A stretch of 64,000 nucleotides of DNA from a virus. The translations under genes and the position numbers were made by a program. Positions 2,863 to 56,299 of this stretch are shown here, one piece after another; position 1 is the stretch's first letter, and each line of letters starts with the position of its first letter. The notes beneath the pieces are model-generated. The model was not told the DNA's origin. It did not search any database and was given only the letters and a program-made list of their open reading frames with translations. The stretch is taken from positions 98,718 to 162,717 of the IMG/VR virus record IMGVR_UViG_3300006329_000001; one strand, written 5' to 3'.

Positions 2863-2993
2863 TTTCCTTGTCCTCTATATTTCTTCTTTGCTCCATTACG
2901 GGAAGTTGCAGAGTACTTTGTATTCATCGATGACCCTTGTCTGGTCTTCTTTGGTTTAGTCTCTTTTAAATTCCCTGCGATGTAAACTGCCAT
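2859..2993 (-). CDS. Small basic protein, 44 aa
   Basis: An ATG-started frame fills the gap between the PAAR-like gene and the SET gene and overlaps the SET GTG start by four bases. The product begins MAVYIAGNLKETKPKK and is very rich in Lys and Arg, ending YRGQGK. Comparable small basic proteins sit near gp25 in T4-like cyanophages, as far as I recall. A nucleic-acid-binding or virion role is possible; none is shown. Confidence 0.65.
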   Translation of the reverse strand: MAVYIAGNLKETKPKKTRQGSSMNTKYSATSRNGAKKKYRGQGK

Positions 2994-3011
2994 AATCTCC
3001 TTTGAGTGTTT

Positions 3012-3542
3012 CTATGATGATAGCACATTAGGACTACCATATGCAACCACTGAAGAACATGGCCAAGAAAAACCAGGAAATCCAATACCCAGAGGATCGA
3101 ATATTCGACCTATAGGGAGTTTGTAGCAAAAGACAGTCTTAGATTGTGCAATGAGGATTCTAGTGTGACCTATACCACCATCTTCTATGGTCAATAGGGA
3201 ACATGGGTACGGAGTTGGTATCGGGCATACCGCTTTACCGCACGGACACATGTGTATTACTATATTAGTACACGGTGAGGGGTGATTAATGAACCTGTCA
3301 CCAAATGTCATAGTTGGTAAGAAGTTCGTTAGTACTGTTGCCTTCAGTGGATGTAGCGGACCAAAGGGTATCAAAGGAAGAGGTGGCCACCAACATGTCC
3401 ACTGTTTAATCTTGATAGGGTACATGGGAGGTGGTCCTGCACATCCCATGACACAATGAACCGTAGACGGAATACAGATTCCGTGCCCAGAGCAAGGCAA
3501 TCCCGTAATGGGTGCTACAGGTAATAGAAATCCGTATGCCAT
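3012..3542 (-). CDS. PAAR-like baseplate spike tip protein
   Basis: 176 aa, rich in Cys, His, Pro and Gly. PAAR proteins form a small metal-bound cone that sharpens the central spike of contractile tails (T4 gp5.4). PAAR-type segments visible are GLPCSGHGI near residue 14, FGDRFINHPSPC near 81-92, and a C-terminal VVAYGSPNVLSS, matching the G(S/T)PNV repeat ending. Several Cys and His residues could ligate metal. The genes around it are baseplate genes. It is somewhat longer than a bare PAAR domain. The assignment rests on motifs, not alignment. Confidence 0.65.
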   Translation of the reverse strand: MAYGFLLPVAPITGLPCSGHGICIPSTVHCVMGCAGPPPMYPIKIKQWTCWWPPLPLIPFGPLHPLKATVLTNFLPTMTFGDRFINHPSPCTNIVIHMCPCGKAVCPIPTPYPCSLLTIEDGGIGHTRILIAQSKTVFCYKLPIGRIFDPLGIGFPGFSWPCSSVVAYGSPNVLSS

Positions 3543-49923: not shown

Positions 49924-52161
49924 TTAGAACATCTCAACGGGAGGAGTATTTGATTCTGCCATCATTCCATATCTAGTACGGAAATAATCATTAGCTGGTG
50001 GTTCATATTTATTGTCAATGAATATAGGTTTAGCAGGTTTCATGTCAGTTTTATTTTGACCACTACCTAGATTTATGGGTGCAAGATCACCGTTAGTTAC
50101 ATTTACTTCATTTCCTGCTTCTTCTTCCTCTTCCACCATACTATCAACATCTATATAATCACCTGTACTCATTCCACCTGTATCCTGATGTGGAGTTGGT
50201 ACTACACCACCCATATCTAAATGAACAGGTTGTACTTCACCACCCTGAGATTTTCCTCTTCTATTCCATAGTCTTGCCACCTCTTCTGGAGGAATTCCTG
50301 CTTTGATCGCAATATTCTTAGGTGAATTTTTAGCTTTCTCGTATAATCTATATGCTGCTGTACCAGGTATCTCTCTATTAAGATTAAATGCTAAGTCTGA
50401 CTTAAAGTGAGGATTATCTAGAGTCTGGCTCCTAATCCATGCCATTTTCTTAAGTAATGCTTCTTTAACTTCTGCCTCTATTGCTTCATTAGCCTCTATC
50501 ATACTCACACCTTCATTAAATGCCCATTCACTCATATTAGCAACAGTCTTACCAAAGTTAGGCATCTTACCGTCTCTATCCATCTCAATTCTCATATGAG
50601 TTCCAAAGAACTCAGGATCACTATCAATCAATTCATTATGCTGTTTCATAAACGCTATCAATGAAGGAGCAGCAGCTTCTACTAATTCTTTGGTGCTCAT
50701 GTTACCTAGTTCAGGTGTAGGACCACCTGCTGCCATACCTTTAATCAGTCCACCACTACTAAAACTTGGTAAAGCATACCCTTTATCTGCTGCTTCTTTC
50801 TGTCTTCTACCTGTCAGAGCTGAATTTCCTCTTGTTGCAGGGGTGTCATATGGTACTACAAATGCACCACCACTCTTCTTTCTTGCAACATATTCTGTAC
50901 CATGACCTATAAATGAGGTACTCCTTCCACCATCTAATGATACAGGATATCCTGTTTGTGGTCCTTGTATCCATCCACCTGCTGCCATCTGGGGTAAAGC
51001 AACTTCACCACCAATCGCTTTCTGATTGTTTTTATTCATCATTTCGATGAAGCTTTCTCTACTCTCTTTTAGTGCTTCCTCAAAACCATCATCACCTTCC
51101 CCTAATTCTACACCCTCTTTTGTTTGTATCCTTGTATTCGAAGCATCATAATTTGCTCTCCATTCATCATAACTTTGTGGTTCAGTTTTTTGTTCATTGT
51201 TTTTATTATCTTTCTCTTCTTTCTGCTCTTCTTCTTGCTCCTCTTCTTCATCCTTCGTCATTACCTTCTTTAATCCCCATGCTGCAAGCAATGCACCACC
51301 AATCATCAAAGCAGCTCTGGGTCTCATCATAATGAATCCCAATATACCCCTAAAGACACCCATCAGTCCTTTAAGCATTCCTTTTATTAATTTAAAGAGT
51401 TTACCCCCTTTAAACAATGACATCACTGCTTTTAGACCAAACTTAGCCATCTTAGCAGGTGCAAAAAAGATTGCTGCTGCAGTGAGGAACTTAATAATTC
51501 CAAATATACCCTTAAAACTTACGGGATTTGATATAAAATCTACAAGACCACCAAGTCCGAAATCAATTAACCATCCACCCAACGTGAACAGCCATTTTCC
51601 TATTCTAGCTATACCTGATATCAGTTTCTTTAGTTTCTTCTGGTTTTCAGGATTACCCATCCATTTGAGTAATGTGAAGGTAATTAACGTCTTAAAGGCA
51701 TTACCTATGAATTTTGCTATACCTGAAAAGAATCCAAATGCATTAGAAACAGCAGTACCAACTACCTCTCCTGCAGTATAAGCGAGTCCTCCTCCCTTTT
51801 TCTTCCCTTTTCCTTCCTGCAGATTTTCTGCAGCTAAATCATCTTCTAGATCTTTTTGCCTTTCTAAATCCTCTGCTTCTTCTTTTCTCTGTGTAACTAA
51901 CTTCTCTACTCCTGCTTCTCTTTGATCTGCTAAATCCTGTTGCTGTTGTATCTGCATTTGCATACTGTCAGCAAATGTCTTGTTCATCTTCTCCACAATA
52001 ATAGCAATACTATTAGTAGTCGCACCTATACTATTGGTTGCTTTTATCAATGAGGTCATACCCTCACTAGCACCAGTAACTGTCTTACCACCAACTTGTA
52101 TAGTAAGTCCACCCTTTATCTTGGGTGGTGTAACCATTTTGTATAGTCTTGCTTTTGCCAT
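49924..52161 (-). CDS. Tape-measure-like virion protein (copy A), 745 aa
   Basis: Coiled N-terminus rich in Gln, Glu, Lys (about 40-110), then hydrophobic segments around 130-300 (GIAKFIGNAFKTLITFTLLK; ILGFIMMRPRAALMIGGALL), a charged region near 305-330, and a Gly/Met/Pro-rich C-terminus. This is the layout of tail tape-measure/gp29-type proteins. It is followed with one base between by copy B, which has the same layout. Membrane-active helices could help DNA entry. Confidence 0.55.
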   Translation of the reverse strand: MAKARLYKMVTPPKIKGGLTIQVGGKTVTGASEGMTSLIKATNSIGATTNSIAIIVEKMNKTFADSMQMQIQQQQDLADQREAGVEKLVTQRKEEAEDLERQKDLEDDLAAENLQEGKGKKKGGGLAYTAGEVVGTAVSNAFGFFSGIAKFIGNAFKTLITFTLLKWMGNPENQKKLKKLISGIARIGKWLFTLGGWLIDFGLGGLVDFISNPVSFKGIFGIIKFLTAAAIFFAPAKMAKFGLKAVMSLFKGGKLFKLIKGMLKGLMGVFRGILGFIMMRPRAALMIGGALLAAWGLKKVMTKDEEEEQEEEQKEEKDNKNNEQKTEPQSYDEWRANYDASNTRIQTKEGVELGEGDDGFEEALKESRESFIEMMNKNNQKAIGGEVALPQMAAGGWIQGPQTGYPVSLDGGRSTSFIGHGTEYVARKKSGGAFVVPYDTPATRGNSALTGRRQKEAADKGYALPSFSSGGLIKGMAAGGPTPELGNMSTKELVEAAAPSLIAFMKQHNELIDSDPEFFGTHMRIEMDRDGKMPNFGKTVANMSEWAFNEGVSMIEANEAIEAEVKEALLKKMAWIRSQTLDNPHFKSDLAFNLNREIPGTAAYRLYEKAKNSPKNIAIKAGIPPEEVARLWNRRGKSQGGEVQPVHLDMGGVVPTPHQDTGGMSTGDYIDVDSMVEEEEEAGNEVNVTNGDLAPINLGSGQNKTDMKPAKPIFIDNKYEPPANDYFRTRYGMMAESNTPPVEMF

Positions 52162-52162
52162 A

Positions 52163-54589
52163 CTACTTCATCTTATCGGATAACATCATTGGAGACTGAC
52201 CATACACAACCGTTGGAGCAGGTGCAGATACTGACTGACCAGGAGTGAATATTTGTTGCCTTGCAACAATTATATTGGTTATAGTCTTTTTCTTAGGCTT
52301 TCTCCTAAAAGGTTTACCTATTTTACTAAGTATTCCACCAAGTTTATCTTTAGTATTTATGGCAAAATCTTCTATTTTCTCACCCATAGGTGAATCTAAT
52401 AACGCTTGTATCCTTTTATTCTGTTCTATCCATGGAACTACTCCTCCCCTAGAGAAATCATAAGGATTATCTTCATTATTCATGGATAAATCTTCACCAG
52501 TTGTTACCTCATTTTCTGATAGTGCATCGTCTACTTCTGAGTCACGAGCAGGTGCTTTAACACGACCACTCTCAAGAATATAGTTATTAGGATTTTCTAA
52601 AATTAAATCTATATCACCCTCATATGCAGGGTTACCATCCCAATCATTATTTGATAAACCTGCACCAATACGAGCTCTATAAAGAGCATTAGATATACGA
52701 TGACGTTCTCCAGACTGGAGTTCTGTCATTATTGCAGGTTCATTTCTTTGGATTACTGTTGTCTGATTATTTGTTGTAGGAGTCTCGTCCTTTACCTCTT
52801 CTTTCTCTTCTTCTTCACCACCACCGAAAGGATCTCTTACAAGCATCCTACCATCATTCATTATAGGATCTGGTATCTTTGATAATCCAGTCTTAGCTAA
52901 CCCTTGTAGTAATTTACTTGCTATAAAATCTCCAACCATTGCACCTGCCATACCAGTGATGAAACCAGGTGCACCACCGAACGGAGCACCAATCGCAAAA
53001 CCTGCAGTATATCCTACAAGTCCACCTATTGCATTTACAATAGCGTTGATAGGAGATTCCTGAAATACAGTATAGTCAAGAAGACCCATAACAGCAGCAA
53101 TAACTGCATCAACACCACCAATCTTTGCTGCTTTAGCTGCTTTAAGTCCTTCTCTTAGTTTTAAAATGTTTTTATTATTCTTCGCACCCTTTAATAATCC
53201 TTTTATTGCTTTTCCTGCTTTCTTGGGATCTTTAACCATCCCCATAATCTTTGCTACTGTCTTATTCTTCTTAACGAGATCATCCATTGATCCCTTAAGC
53301 ATATTCTTAACTTTTTCTCCTAATAATTTAGGATTCTTAGCAAGTTCTACAATATCACCAATCTTCTTAGCCCAAGTAGCAGCTTTCTCTTTTATACCAG
53401 CTACTATGCCATTTATTCTCTTACTAAATGATTTACCAAAGTCATCTGCCCATTGACCAAATTTTTGACCTTGTTTTCCAGCCCACTCTACACCCTCCGA
53501 TACCAAGTTTTTAGTTTGATTAATCTTCTTACCCGTAAAGTCTTTTAGTCTACCCCACAATCCCTTACCAGTTTGTCCTGCTTGTCCCAGACGATTTTTG
53601 ATACCTTTCCAAAGACCTTTACCCTTTTTCCAAAGATCTTTACCAGTTTTTAGTGCATTCTTTCCAAAATTTTTGACATTCTGTATCGTTCTACCTGCCT
53701 TTACCTGTAGTTTCCTACGCATGGTACGAACACGGTCACCAATATTCTTAAACCTTCTTGTCTTAGGTTTAGGTGGTTTTGGTGGTTTATCTGGCATCTC
53801 CCCTTTAGTTAATGCCTTACCGATGTTTTTCATCGCTTTGACATCACTTAAAAGTTTCCATGGCATCATCATCCTAGATGCTAACCAGAAACTTGCCATT
53901 CCACCTATGATCTTAAAGACCCCAAACATTGCTTCGAATGCTTTCTCAAAGTTAGTTTGACCTGGATCTTTATCTCCGAATATATTACCAACACCCGTCA
54001 GAACATTATCCATGCCCCAACTGACTAACTTAAAGACCATCTTACCCATTGCTCCAAAGAATTTGAGCAATGTTTTTATAGTTTCATTTTGTTTTTTATC
54101 TCCCAGAAACTTAAAGAACTTATATGCAACAAATCCCTGTAATAGACTTCCTAAGAAACCTGCTATTGGTGCAAATGGTTTTAGAAACTCCTCCATCCAA
54201 GATAATTCCTTCTTAGGAGTCTGTTTCGCTTTGTTTACACCTTCTTCATTTGCTTCATCCTCATCTAGACCCTCTTGTGCTTCTTCTGCTTCTAAATCTT
54301 CTTCTAGATTTGCTTCTTTCTTCTTTTTCTTTGCAGTAGCAGTCCTCATGTCGAGTTTCTTATCGACCTCTTCATCCTGCTCTTTCTTTCTGTCTAAGAA
54401 ATTATCAGAGAGAAACTCTTTCTGAAACTCCATCATATTGACGATATTTGCCAAGTTCTGACCAATACCAGTTAATGTACCACCAAGTCTATTATAAGCA
54501 ATAGTCTGAGCTTTAATCTGCGTCCCAAAAGGAGTACTTCCTCTTTTGGGATTAATTGAGATAAACTTTCTTACTGCTGCAGTTGCCAT
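52163..54589 (-). CDS. Tape-measure-like virion protein (copy B), 808 aa
   Basis: Layout as in copy A: acidic/lysine-rich coil (about 45-150), hydrophobic segments (PIAGFLGSLLQGFVAYKFFK; VFKIIGGMASFWLASRMMMP), a long very basic region (260-470, many Lys, Arg, Gly), more hydrophobic helices (LVGYTAGFAIGAPFGGAPGF; PGFITGMAGAMVGDFIASKL) and a low-complexity tail. Similar position-matched segments (GKWLF..GGWLIDFGLGGLV and GKMVFKLVSWGMDNVLTG) suggest ancient paralogy to copy A. It starts at the stop of the small downstream frame of gp26. Confidence 0.55.
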   Translation of the reverse strand: MATAAVRKFISINPKRGSTPFGTQIKAQTIAYNRLGGTLTGIGQNLANIVNMMEFQKEFLSDNFLDRKKEQDEEVDKKLDMRTATAKKKKKEANLEEDLEAEEAQEGLDEDEANEEGVNKAKQTPKKELSWMEEFLKPFAPIAGFLGSLLQGFVAYKFFKFLGDKKQNETIKTLLKFFGAMGKMVFKLVSWGMDNVLTGVGNIFGDKDPGQTNFEKAFEAMFGVFKIIGGMASFWLASRMMMPWKLLSDVKAMKNIGKALTKGEMPDKPPKPPKPKTRRFKNIGDRVRTMRRKLQVKAGRTIQNVKNFGKNALKTGKDLWKKGKGLWKGIKNRLGQAGQTGKGLWGRLKDFTGKKINQTKNLVSEGVEWAGKQGQKFGQWADDFGKSFSKRINGIVAGIKEKAATWAKKIGDIVELAKNPKLLGEKVKNMLKGSMDDLVKKNKTVAKIMGMVKDPKKAGKAIKGLLKGAKNNKNILKLREGLKAAKAAKIGGVDAVIAAVMGLLDYTVFQESPINAIVNAIGGLVGYTAGFAIGAPFGGAPGFITGMAGAMVGDFIASKLLQGLAKTGLSKIPDPIMNDGRMLVRDPFGGGEEEEKEEVKDETPTTNNQTTVIQRNEPAIMTELQSGERHRISNALYRARIGAGLSNNDWDGNPAYEGDIDLILENPNNYILESGRVKAPARDSEVDDALSENEVTTGEDLSMNNEDNPYDFSRGGVVPWIEQNKRIQALLDSPMGEKIEDFAINTKDKLGGILSKIGKPFRRKPKKKTITNIIVARQQIFTPGQSVSAPAPTVVYGQSPMMLSDKMK

Positions 54590-54780
54590 TAGAGACTTAC
54601 TCTGTTCTTATTCTGTGCTTGTTTTCTTTGCTGCTCAACCTCATTAATATGTGCAATTAGAAGGTTGACATAAATGTCTCTCTCCCAAGGCATCATATTT
54701 TCCAATTCAGTAAGACTATATTTGTGATGTTGCATCAATGCGAAATTAGTCTTGTACATGTTCTCAAGACTATCGTGCAT
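54589..54780 (-). CDS. Small tail-assembly chaperone frame after gp26, 63 aa
   Basis: From the ATG at 54780 (MHDSLENMYKTNFALMQHHK; YSLTELENMMPWERDIYVNL), helical, Gln/Asn-rich at the end. It starts six bases after the gp26 stop with no near ribosome site (GGAGGG is 27 bases away). It is reached in frame from gp26 by a -1 shift, so it may be made mainly as the C-terminal part of a gp26 fusion. Immediately followed by the tape-measure-like genes, as with lambda G/GT. Confidence 0.6.
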   Translation of the reverse strand: MHDSLENMYKTNFALMQHHKYSLTELENMMPWERDIYVNLLIAHINEVEQQRKQAQNKNRVSL

Positions 54781-54785
54781 CAATG

Positions 54786-55487
54786 CTACCCGAAAAAACT
54801 TGCAAGTCCCTCCAGTTTTAGCTCACTCTTTTTCTTAGTCTTAGGATTAAATACGGTAATCGTATGCTCAAGTTTAGGCATAGTCTCAAAGAAATCTTGG
54901 ATCTTAGCAAATTGATCCTGATTCATATCACCAATGAAATCATGTGCTTCTTTCGCTGTGAAAGAGTCATAGATCTCTTCTCCCTGATATACTTTGTCAA
55001 TACATGATGCAGATAAGTCAAAAACGTCTTCCATAGTAGGGTCGTTCTTCATATTACGATCAATAAACGCATTTAGAGACGGATATTTCATCTCAATCTT
55101 AATATCATCATCTATAGTAAGGATTCTTTTATGTTCCTTCGGTACTTGTACCTCAATTTCTTCCAAGTCGAGTTTGACATCGATCTTTGTCTTTTTATCA
55201 TCAGGGCATGTTACTTTAAATTCACTTGATTCACCGACTGCTTTAGCACGGATTCTCAAAAACAAATACTCAATCTCAAAGGTAGGCAGTTTATTGATAT
55301 CTTTCACATTGGTACATGCTTTAAGGATAGTCTTAACTGCTTTTGCCATTTCTTTCTCATCTTGAGTTTCCATTGCTATGTAAAGCAATTTCTCCTCTTT
55401 CACAAGAAATGGTCTATAACTGACTTTTGTACCAGTAACAGGTAGTACGCAGTCATAGTCAGGCACTGCAAGTTTTGGTAAAGGCAT
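54786..55487 (-). CDS. 26: Baseplate hub gp26 (T4_baseplate family)
   Basis: 233 aa, close to T4 gp26 (208 aa). MPLPKLAVPDYDCVLPVTGT at the start, YRPFLVKEEKLLYIAMETQD near 24-43 and FEIEYLFLRIRAKAVGE near 75-91 match the family. T4 gp26 belongs to the baseplate hub assembly set. A CTAAATA-type promoter lies 24 bases upstream. The last codons (SFFG and stop) contain a slippery heptamer leading into the next frame. Confidence 0.85.
   Translation of the reverse strand: MPLPKLAVPDYDCVLPVTGTKVSYRPFLVKEEKLLYIAMETQDEKEMAKAVKTILKACTNVKDINKLPTFEIEYLFLRIRAKAVGESSEFKVTCPDDKKTKIDVKLDLEEIEVQVPKEHKRILTIDDDIKIEMKYPSLNAFIDRNMKNDPTMEDVFDLSASCIDKVYQGEEIYDSFTAKEAHDFIGDMNQDQFAKIQDFFETMPKLEHTITVFNPKTKKKSELKLEGLASFFG
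54792..54813 (-). promoter_or_regulatory. Predicted -1 frameshift signal at the end of gp26
   Basis: Minus strand: GGAGGG (54813-54808), nine bases, then T_TTT_TTC (54798-54792) in the gp26 frame, GGG, stop TAG (54788-54786). Slipping back one base gives CGG GTA GCA TTG ATG, in frame with the 63-aa gene. A Shine-Dalgarno-like sequence at this distance stimulates -1 slippage in dnaX. Confidence 0.7.
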
Positions 55488-55510: not shown

Positions 55511-55518
55511 TATTTAGA
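55511..55518 (-). promoter_or_regulatory. Late-promoter-like site before gp26
   Basis: Minus strand TCTAAATA, 24 bases before the gp26 ATG and overlapping the end of the upstream gene. Confidence 0.55.
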
Positions 55519-56299
55519 CACCATATTTGGAGAACTCTCCACCAGAAGGGATGGTGCTCGCAGTTACATGCTTAGCTTGTGCTGTAGTCTTGAGTCCATC
55601 AATATTAACTGTGTCAAATCTATATCTTTCCATCTGAAACTGAATATTCAGTTCTAGGAGAGACCTAGCGTCATTATTTAGGGTGATTGTGCCTATGTTC
55701 TTTGGGAATACCCCAAAGCACTTATAGACAGCAGTCGCTTGATTCATTCTAAACTTGTAATCTACTCTATCGCTTCCTTCACCTATTTGTTTGTTTAACC
55801 ATGTATTAGATCCACTCTCCCACTTAACTATTTGCAACTGTGTTGTATATTGATCGTAAAATCCTACTGTATTATCTGCATCAGAAGCACAGTTATGCAT
55901 CCATTGCTCAAAAAATGCTCTATGTTGGTTATCTTTAGTTACCAAAAAAGTAATATCCAAATCAGTTGGTGACTGCCCACTAGCATAACTACGGTTCATT
56001 CCACCCACATGAACTTCTGTAGTTGCTACATTTCTCGATGGAACAGTAACACTGGTTGCAAATAAACTAATATTCTTTCTTATATTTCTACCATTAGCAT
56101 CCGAAGACAACCATCCTGTAGATGCCTGACTAAGCTGATTAACAGGTCCCATAACTACTGGTATACTCATGACAATCTCAAATAAGTTATTGCGTGCGGG
56201 TTCCAAATGACCCATTGCAACAGCTTCCTGGAATGTCTGAAAATAATTCGGACTATAATTAAGTTCATCAACTACAGTCGGTGTCTCTTCGAATGCCAT
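55514..56299 (-). CDS. 54: Tail tube-fold protein, gp54-like tube initiator
   Basis: 261 aa with a tube-family look: VPSRNVATTEVHVGGMNRSY near 90-109, PTDLDITFLVTKDNQHRAFF near 114-133, GFYDQYTTQLQIVKW near 145-159 and a final TLNNDARSLLELNIQFQMER. In T4 gp54 shares the gp19 tube fold and starts the tube on gp48. It lies close to gp48. Size is between gp19 (163) and gp54 (320), so a tube protein remains possible. Confidence 0.65.
   Translation of the reverse strand: MAFEETPTVVDELNYSPNYFQTFQEAVAMGHLEPARNNLFEIVMSIPVVMGPVNQLSQASTGWLSSDANGRNIRKNISLFATSVTVPSRNVATTEVHVGGMNRSYASGQSPTDLDITFLVTKDNQHRAFFEQWMHNCASDADNTVGFYDQYTTQLQIVKWESGSNTWLNKQIGEGSDRVDYKFRMNQATAVYKCFGVFPKNIGTITLNNDARSLLELNIQFQMERYRFDTVNIDGLKTTAQAKHVTASTIPSGGEFSKYGV

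Follow-up and report, generated by a model that had tools for sequence, protein, structure and literature searches.

In programmed -1 ribosomal frameshifting, the usual stimulators are a Shine-Dalgarno (SD)-like element ∼9 to 14 nucleotides (nt) upstream of the slippery site and a stem-loop 5 to 9 nt downstream. A group of lambda-type chaperone frameshifts was reportedly described by Xu, Hendrix & Duda in 2004, and Vladimirov, Gautam & Davidson (2022; Virology 566:9-15) are said to have identified the tail assembly chaperone (TAC) genes of T4-like phages, under a title that reportedly stresses a mechanism other than frameshifting. The model for such genes is lambda gpG/gpGT, in which a short chaperone gene of the tail cluster has a -1 frameshift at its 3' end (PMC5009743). 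For T4-like phages, a later paper credits Vladimirov et al. (2022) with poly-T -1 signals in TAC-N genes (PMC12846349), and another, citing the same work, has a short gene plus a fused long gene replacing the frameshift in some T4-like phages (PMC10885494). Here, we analyzed a 64,000-nt stretch of DNA from an uncultured T4-like phage of the ocean ("the window"), positions 98,718 to 162,717 of IMG/VR record IMGVR_UViG_3300006329_000001, which comprises 162,717 bases including the window. We predict, with a probability of about 0.92, that programmed -1 ribosomal frameshifting lets its gp26 gene encode both a 233-amino-acid (aa) TAC-N and a 299-aa TAC-NC.

Results

The gp26 product is the only PF12322 protein encoded in the viral record, whose closest named relative is cyanophage P-RSM6 (87% at the aa level). 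The protein ends in LEGLASFFG, followed by TAG, and in gp26 phase the 3' end of the gene reads GGAGGG ACTTGCAAG T TTT TTC GGG TAG. The heptamer conforms to the X_XXY_YYZ pattern of bacterial tandem-slippage -1 sites and lies in zero phase at the overlap of the two frames. If the C at position 54792 is read twice, translation continues as CGG GTA GCA TTG ATG and stays open until a TAA codon (54591-54589) that overlaps the ATG of the following 808-aa gene (TAATG). The first-pass annotation had proposed this arrangement, and the minus-strand sequence bore out the heptamer, its phase, the nine bases separating it from GGAGGG, the coordinates and the length of the predicted fusion (232 + 3 + 64 = 299 aa). 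Most ribosomes would terminate at TAG and release TAC-N, while a minority would slip from T TTT TTC to TTT TTT just 5' of the stop codon and continue in the -1 frame to produce TAC-NC. Slippage would be aided by pairing of the ribosomal anti-SD sequence with GGAGGG and by a stem-loop immediately downstream. On the pattern of lambda gpG/gpGT, coating of the tape-measure protein would fall to TAC-N and recruitment of the tail-tube subunit to the additional 67 aa of TAC-NC.

To follow the signal through related phages, loci were gathered by scanning IMG/VR with six gp26 queries (those of KVP40 and Cr30 yielded two loci each) and by adding 25 annotated phage regions. An in-frame T_TTT_TTN located 0 to 6 nt 5' of the stop codon was present in 288 of 293 distinct complete gp26 3' ends, the five others being three T4-type records, Vibrio phage K362 and Kuja. 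Any of the four bases occurred at the last position (TTTTTTC, 223 loci; TTTTTTA, 40; TTTTTTT, 22; TTTTTTG, 3). In the Melnitz-type loci (L266-L282), TTTTTTT is directly followed by the stop codon, giving eight T in a row. When gp26 sequences with less than 80% aa identity to each other were taken as representatives, 155 of 157 possessed the heptamer, at distances of 0, 3 and 6 nt from the stop codon in 12, 142 and 1 cases, respectively. Since only 54 of 35,568 other gp26 codon positions carried an in-frame T_TTT_TTN, its occurrence at this one place is more than chance.

A Ser-Phe-Phe requirement of the protein, or chance, might still account for the motif, as the peptide LEGLxSFF is conserved in many relatives. 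However, Phe-Phe is changed to Phe-Leu in 43 loci by TTA or TTG, that is, through the third base alone, and all six T are retained. The residue preceding the heptamer may be Ser, Asp, Asn or Ala, but its codon (AGT, TCT, GAT, AAT or GCT) had T as its last base in all 155 representatives, compared to ∼34, 59, 75 and 80% T-ending codons for Ala, Ser, Asn and Asp in the rest of gp26 (∼1e-60 under gp26 codon usage, a figure that ignores relatedness). Likewise, the TTT codon within the heptamer is used throughout, versus 68% TTT for Phe elsewhere in gp26, and the stem-loop signal described below held against a null that preserves the protein. We therefore regard a pure protein constraint or chance as extremely improbable. 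The conserved T run could alternatively cause RNA polymerase to slip, generating mRNAs that join both frames, and 19 of 288 loci contain eight T. Yet the run comprises exactly six T in 266 of the 288 loci, whereas bacterial transcriptional slippage has been described for runs of nine A or T (PMC5009743); moreover, such a process would leave no role for an SD-like element or a 3' stem-loop, and the codon phase of the run is fixed. Because of the run length in particular, we rejected transcriptional slippage as very unlikely.

The GGAGGG element encodes Glu-Gly. Its Glu was specified by GAG in 97 of 137 representatives (71%), compared with 31% (1068 of 3464) of the Glu codons in the rest of the gene (odds ratio, ∼5), which indicates complementarity to the anti-SD sequence above the need of the protein. 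Codon choice hence argues that the GAG-GG element is under selection beyond the protein.

Downstream of the heptamer, a structure overlooked in the first-pass annotation was predicted as the third part of the signal. In the window, it consists of an outer 10-bp stem (54786-54777/54741-54732) enclosing an inner 8-bp stem (54772-54765/54754-54747), with an energy of ∼-21 kcal/mol in RNAfold, and folds of this type were also found in P-RSM6 and in five further loci (L002, L003 and L006-L008). Both common kinds of stimulator, an SD-like element upstream and a stem-loop downstream, are thus present as sequence features. Global RNAalifold analysis of 141 codon-registered sequences revealed no single consensus structure, because the stems occupy different registers by lineage (i+j sums of 42, 65, 29 and 31). 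Therefore, folding was assessed for each sequence against a null in which the -1 protein was kept and synonymous codons were drawn, and one register was tested separately. For the 51 nt after the heptamer, the mean z was -2.41 (n = 154), whereas the two stretches that follow gave -0.29 and -0.28 and sequence within gp26 gave -0.40; a dinucleotide null concurred (-2.10 versus -0.08 and -0.51). Stems of at least 8 bp in the register 6-16/26-36 after the heptamer were found in 28 sequences versus 3.1 expected. In a set picked for covariation analysis by peptide and not by structure, 76.4% of the cells were paired, compared to 24.7 to 47.2% in slid registers. The pair 14-28 appeared as U-A (18), G-C (5) and A-U (2), and the protein shifted between Glu, Ala and Val accordingly. 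At the level of pairs the signal was modest, with double changes at 3 pairs only, equalled in 124 of 500 shuffles; none of the 500 shuffles reached 10 double-change cells or the observed covariation score.

The -1 frame itself remained open for ∼55 to 65 aa beyond the gp26 stop codon in virtually all loci (a few end at a contig edge), while the +1 frame was closed within 10 codons in most. The window's -1 peptide matched phrog_634 ("baseplate hub assembly catalyst"; E = 1.1e-29) and also positions 237-276 of phrog_150, the stretch of that profile directly after its gp26 part. An open frame under selection at the protein level hence follows the heptamer. This frame might instead be a separate gene (gp51) that starts at the TTG/ATG at 54783-54778 and is translated by termination-reinitiation after gp26 without any fusion. 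Indeed, all annotated records that list the small open reading frame (ORF) show it as a separate coding sequence, beginning at the nearest start codon, and several annotate none despite the domain; the -1 frame has an early ATG in 87 of 155 representatives. In 8 of the 155, such as KVP40, this ATG overlaps the gp26 stop codon, and reinitiation may contribute to expression in these few lineages. Against a separate gene, 50 of the 155 lack any ATG, GTG or TTG in the -1 frame as far as 30 nt beyond the stop codon and 18 more have only GTG or TTG. The peptide FFR[VIL]xLxH, which lies ahead of any start codon after the heptamer, is conserved, and the heptamer is kept at the nucleotide level. The ATG available in the window (54780) lacks a normally spaced SD sequence, GGAGGG being 27 nt away, and lies inside the predicted stem; the first-pass annotation had already noticed that it has no proper ribosome site. 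In T4, moreover, both parts are fused. We consider a separate gene unlikely. The alignment of homologues that had been suggested as a check on the predicted frameshift thus supports it: the heptamer is kept, the -1 frame is preserved, and the small gene has no common ribosome site or start codon. As to annotation of the small ORF, it is inconsistent, comprising 30 aa in P-HM2 (L105, 3789-3881) and being missing in S-CAM1 and ACG-2014d (L083 and L082).

A short and a long form sharing their N-terminal domain are here predicted from the reading frames, and a matching pair is encoded by T4-type gp26 and gp51, known in T4 as hub assembly chaperone/catalyst. In T4-type phages these are two genes on opposite strands, in contrast to one gene with a frameshift signal in the window. 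T4 gp26 is a homologue of the short form, and the T4-type genes end in GAA TTC TTT GAG or GAA TTC TTC AGG, without a heptamer. The 249-aa gp51 of the T4-type phage Kha5h matched PF12322 with residues 1-201, phrog_150 with residues 3-248 (positions 13-280 of 282 in the profile) and phrog_634 with residues 147-246; it therefore joins the gp26-type domain to the -1 domain within a single frame, as does T4 gp51, whereas Kha5h gp26 covers only the first part of phrog_150. As would suit a chaperone, T4 gp51 is not part of the particle although assembly depends on it (PMC3004832). With T4 gp51 fused in one frame and T4-type gp26 devoid of the heptamer, the two forms predicted for the window look like a tail-assembly-chaperone pair. 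Straboviridae outside the T4-type group (KVP40, Aeromonas 65.2 and LPCS28) retain the frameshift signal.

The gp26 locus sits with tail-tube and gp2/gp4-type genes; its features are listed in Table 1. A tail-tube-type gene lies upstream and two long proteins are encoded downstream, and a tape measure is named nearby in the annotations of Cr30 and S-SCSM1. The 808-aa and 745-aa proteins share phrog_790, phrog_1200, phrog_17500 and phrog_2588 and thus appear paralogous towards the N terminus; the "endolysin" label on some of the shared families may be a mislabel. PDB sequence searches with the two proteins gave no relevant match. The first-pass annotation had called both tape-measure-like, a label that keeps its basis in position, size and the annotations of the two relatives but draws none from the protein families, which are labelled endolysin or unknown.

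Table 1. Features at the gp26 locus of the window
Feature	Position	Strand	Basis
gp26, TAC-N (short form), 233 aa	54786..55487	-	Pfam T4_baseplate PF12322, E 2.4e-68; phrog_150 positions 5-232 of 282
GGAGGG, SD-like upstream stimulator (predicted)	54808..54813	-	9 nt 5' of heptamer; sequence and GAG bias
Slippery heptamer T_TTT_TTC	54792..54798	-	Sequence; T_TTT_TTN in 288/293 distinct homologous 3' ends
Zero-frame stop TAG	54786..54788	-	One codon past heptamer
Predicted 3' stimulatory RNA structure	54732..54786	-	RNAfold, fold in relatives, group z
-1 frame extension (TAC-C, gp51-type domain), 67 aa after FF	54589..54792	-	phrog_634 and phrog_150 matches; openness in relatives
808-aa protein, candidate tape measure	52163..54589	-	phrog_17778
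745-aa protein, related to 808-aa protein, candidate tape measure or hub protein	49924..52161	-	phrog_1200/5867, labelled endolysin
Tail-tube-type protein adjoining gp26 upstream	55514..56299	-	phrog_45 tail tube, E 8.9e-39

Discussion

Comparison of homologues brought out a three-part signal, a -1 frame that is conserved, and T4 gp51 as a counterpart fused in frame. The frameshift site thus appears real, ancient and very widespread, and it most likely serves a tail assembly chaperone; that ribosomes slip here, how efficiently they do so, and the chaperone role itself are what we infer from it. For a structural model of the short form (AlphaFold2 [AF2]; predicted local distance difference test [pLDDT], 86), the top two matches in the PDB were both to 2OB9, the HK97 tail assembly chaperone (probability, 0.75 for chain B; E = 0.62), a fold match that is suggestive, not proof. 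The same model retrieved gp26-type proteins from a viral structure library; at the sequence level, the gp26 profile drew no relevant match from the PDB.

Several points weigh against this interpretation. The support consists of sequence comparison. The 2OB9 match, while the best in the PDB, is not significant, and the 808-aa and 745-aa proteins match no named tape-measure family. S-SCSM1 (L104, about 2985-3016) keeps the heptamer, but an 11-nt insertion closes the -1 frame at once; this could reflect either faulty sequence or true loss of the frameshift. Finally, the six T are missing from two distant relatives, K362 and Kuja, and from three of the four Ackermannviridae sampled, although the -1 frame is kept. 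In Vibrio phage K362, Kuja and the four Ackermannviridae (L093, L096, L348, L349, L350 and L351), the -1 extension spans 53 to 63 aa and contains an xPW motif; SH-Ab has T_TTT_TTT at the junction, and CTTTTC, CTTTTTC, GTTTTTC or ATTTTC is found in the other five. The phages lacking six T may use other shift sites. The shorter T runs in five of the six are reminiscent of T7 gene 10-like sites, and the xPW extension is unannotated in several of these records.

With regard to evolution, we lean slightly towards a scenario in which the three-part, dnaX-like cassette is the ancestral control of the chaperone ratio in the T4 superfamily, its stem-loop having been rebuilt in different registers by lineage. 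The T4 lineage would have duplicated gp26 and fused one copy to the -1 domain, making the gp51 "hub assembly catalyst" a frozen frameshift product. The order, frameshift first and duplication later, is our inference.

Cyanomyoviruses are among the commonest viruses of the ocean, but in public annotation this protein is split, cut short or left out. A joined coding sequence was marked in none of the 28 annotated records inspected. Reading the locus as a frameshift would supply the chaperone pair and explain the common part of T4 gp26 and gp51. It would also offer several hundred natural variants of one signal, with four different final bases and several stem-loop registers, for studies of stimulator efficiency. 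Our literature search, in which Vladimirov et al. (2022) was judged by its title and by citing papers, found no description of a frameshift for cyanophages. The first-pass annotation knew of no such signal in a T4-like gp26 gene; in view of the poly-T TAC-N signals mentioned in PMC12846349, it is not new in kind, and the group that carries it is probably known too. The stem-loop and the start-codon argument are additions of the present analysis.

The arrangement resembles lambda gpG/gpGT in that the long form equals the short form plus a C-terminal domain. The lambda slippery site is G_GGA_AAG instead of T_TTT_TTN, and, as a difference from lambda, clear SD-like and stem-loop stimulators are predicted here; the likeness is one of architecture. 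In the TAC locus of Vandenendeviridae and Andersonviridae (PMC12846349), TAC-N likewise ends in a T-rich site of -1 shifting, and the C-terminal part is routinely misannotated as a separate hypothetical gene, as here; these are, however, other families, and their motif is GTTTTT. In the combination of its parts, an upstream SD-like element, a slippery heptamer and a downstream stem-loop, the signal is like that of Escherichia coli dnaX (PMC3711429), although the dnaX site is A_AAA_AAG and its shift leads to a shorter product (PMC5009743), whereas the product predicted here is longer.

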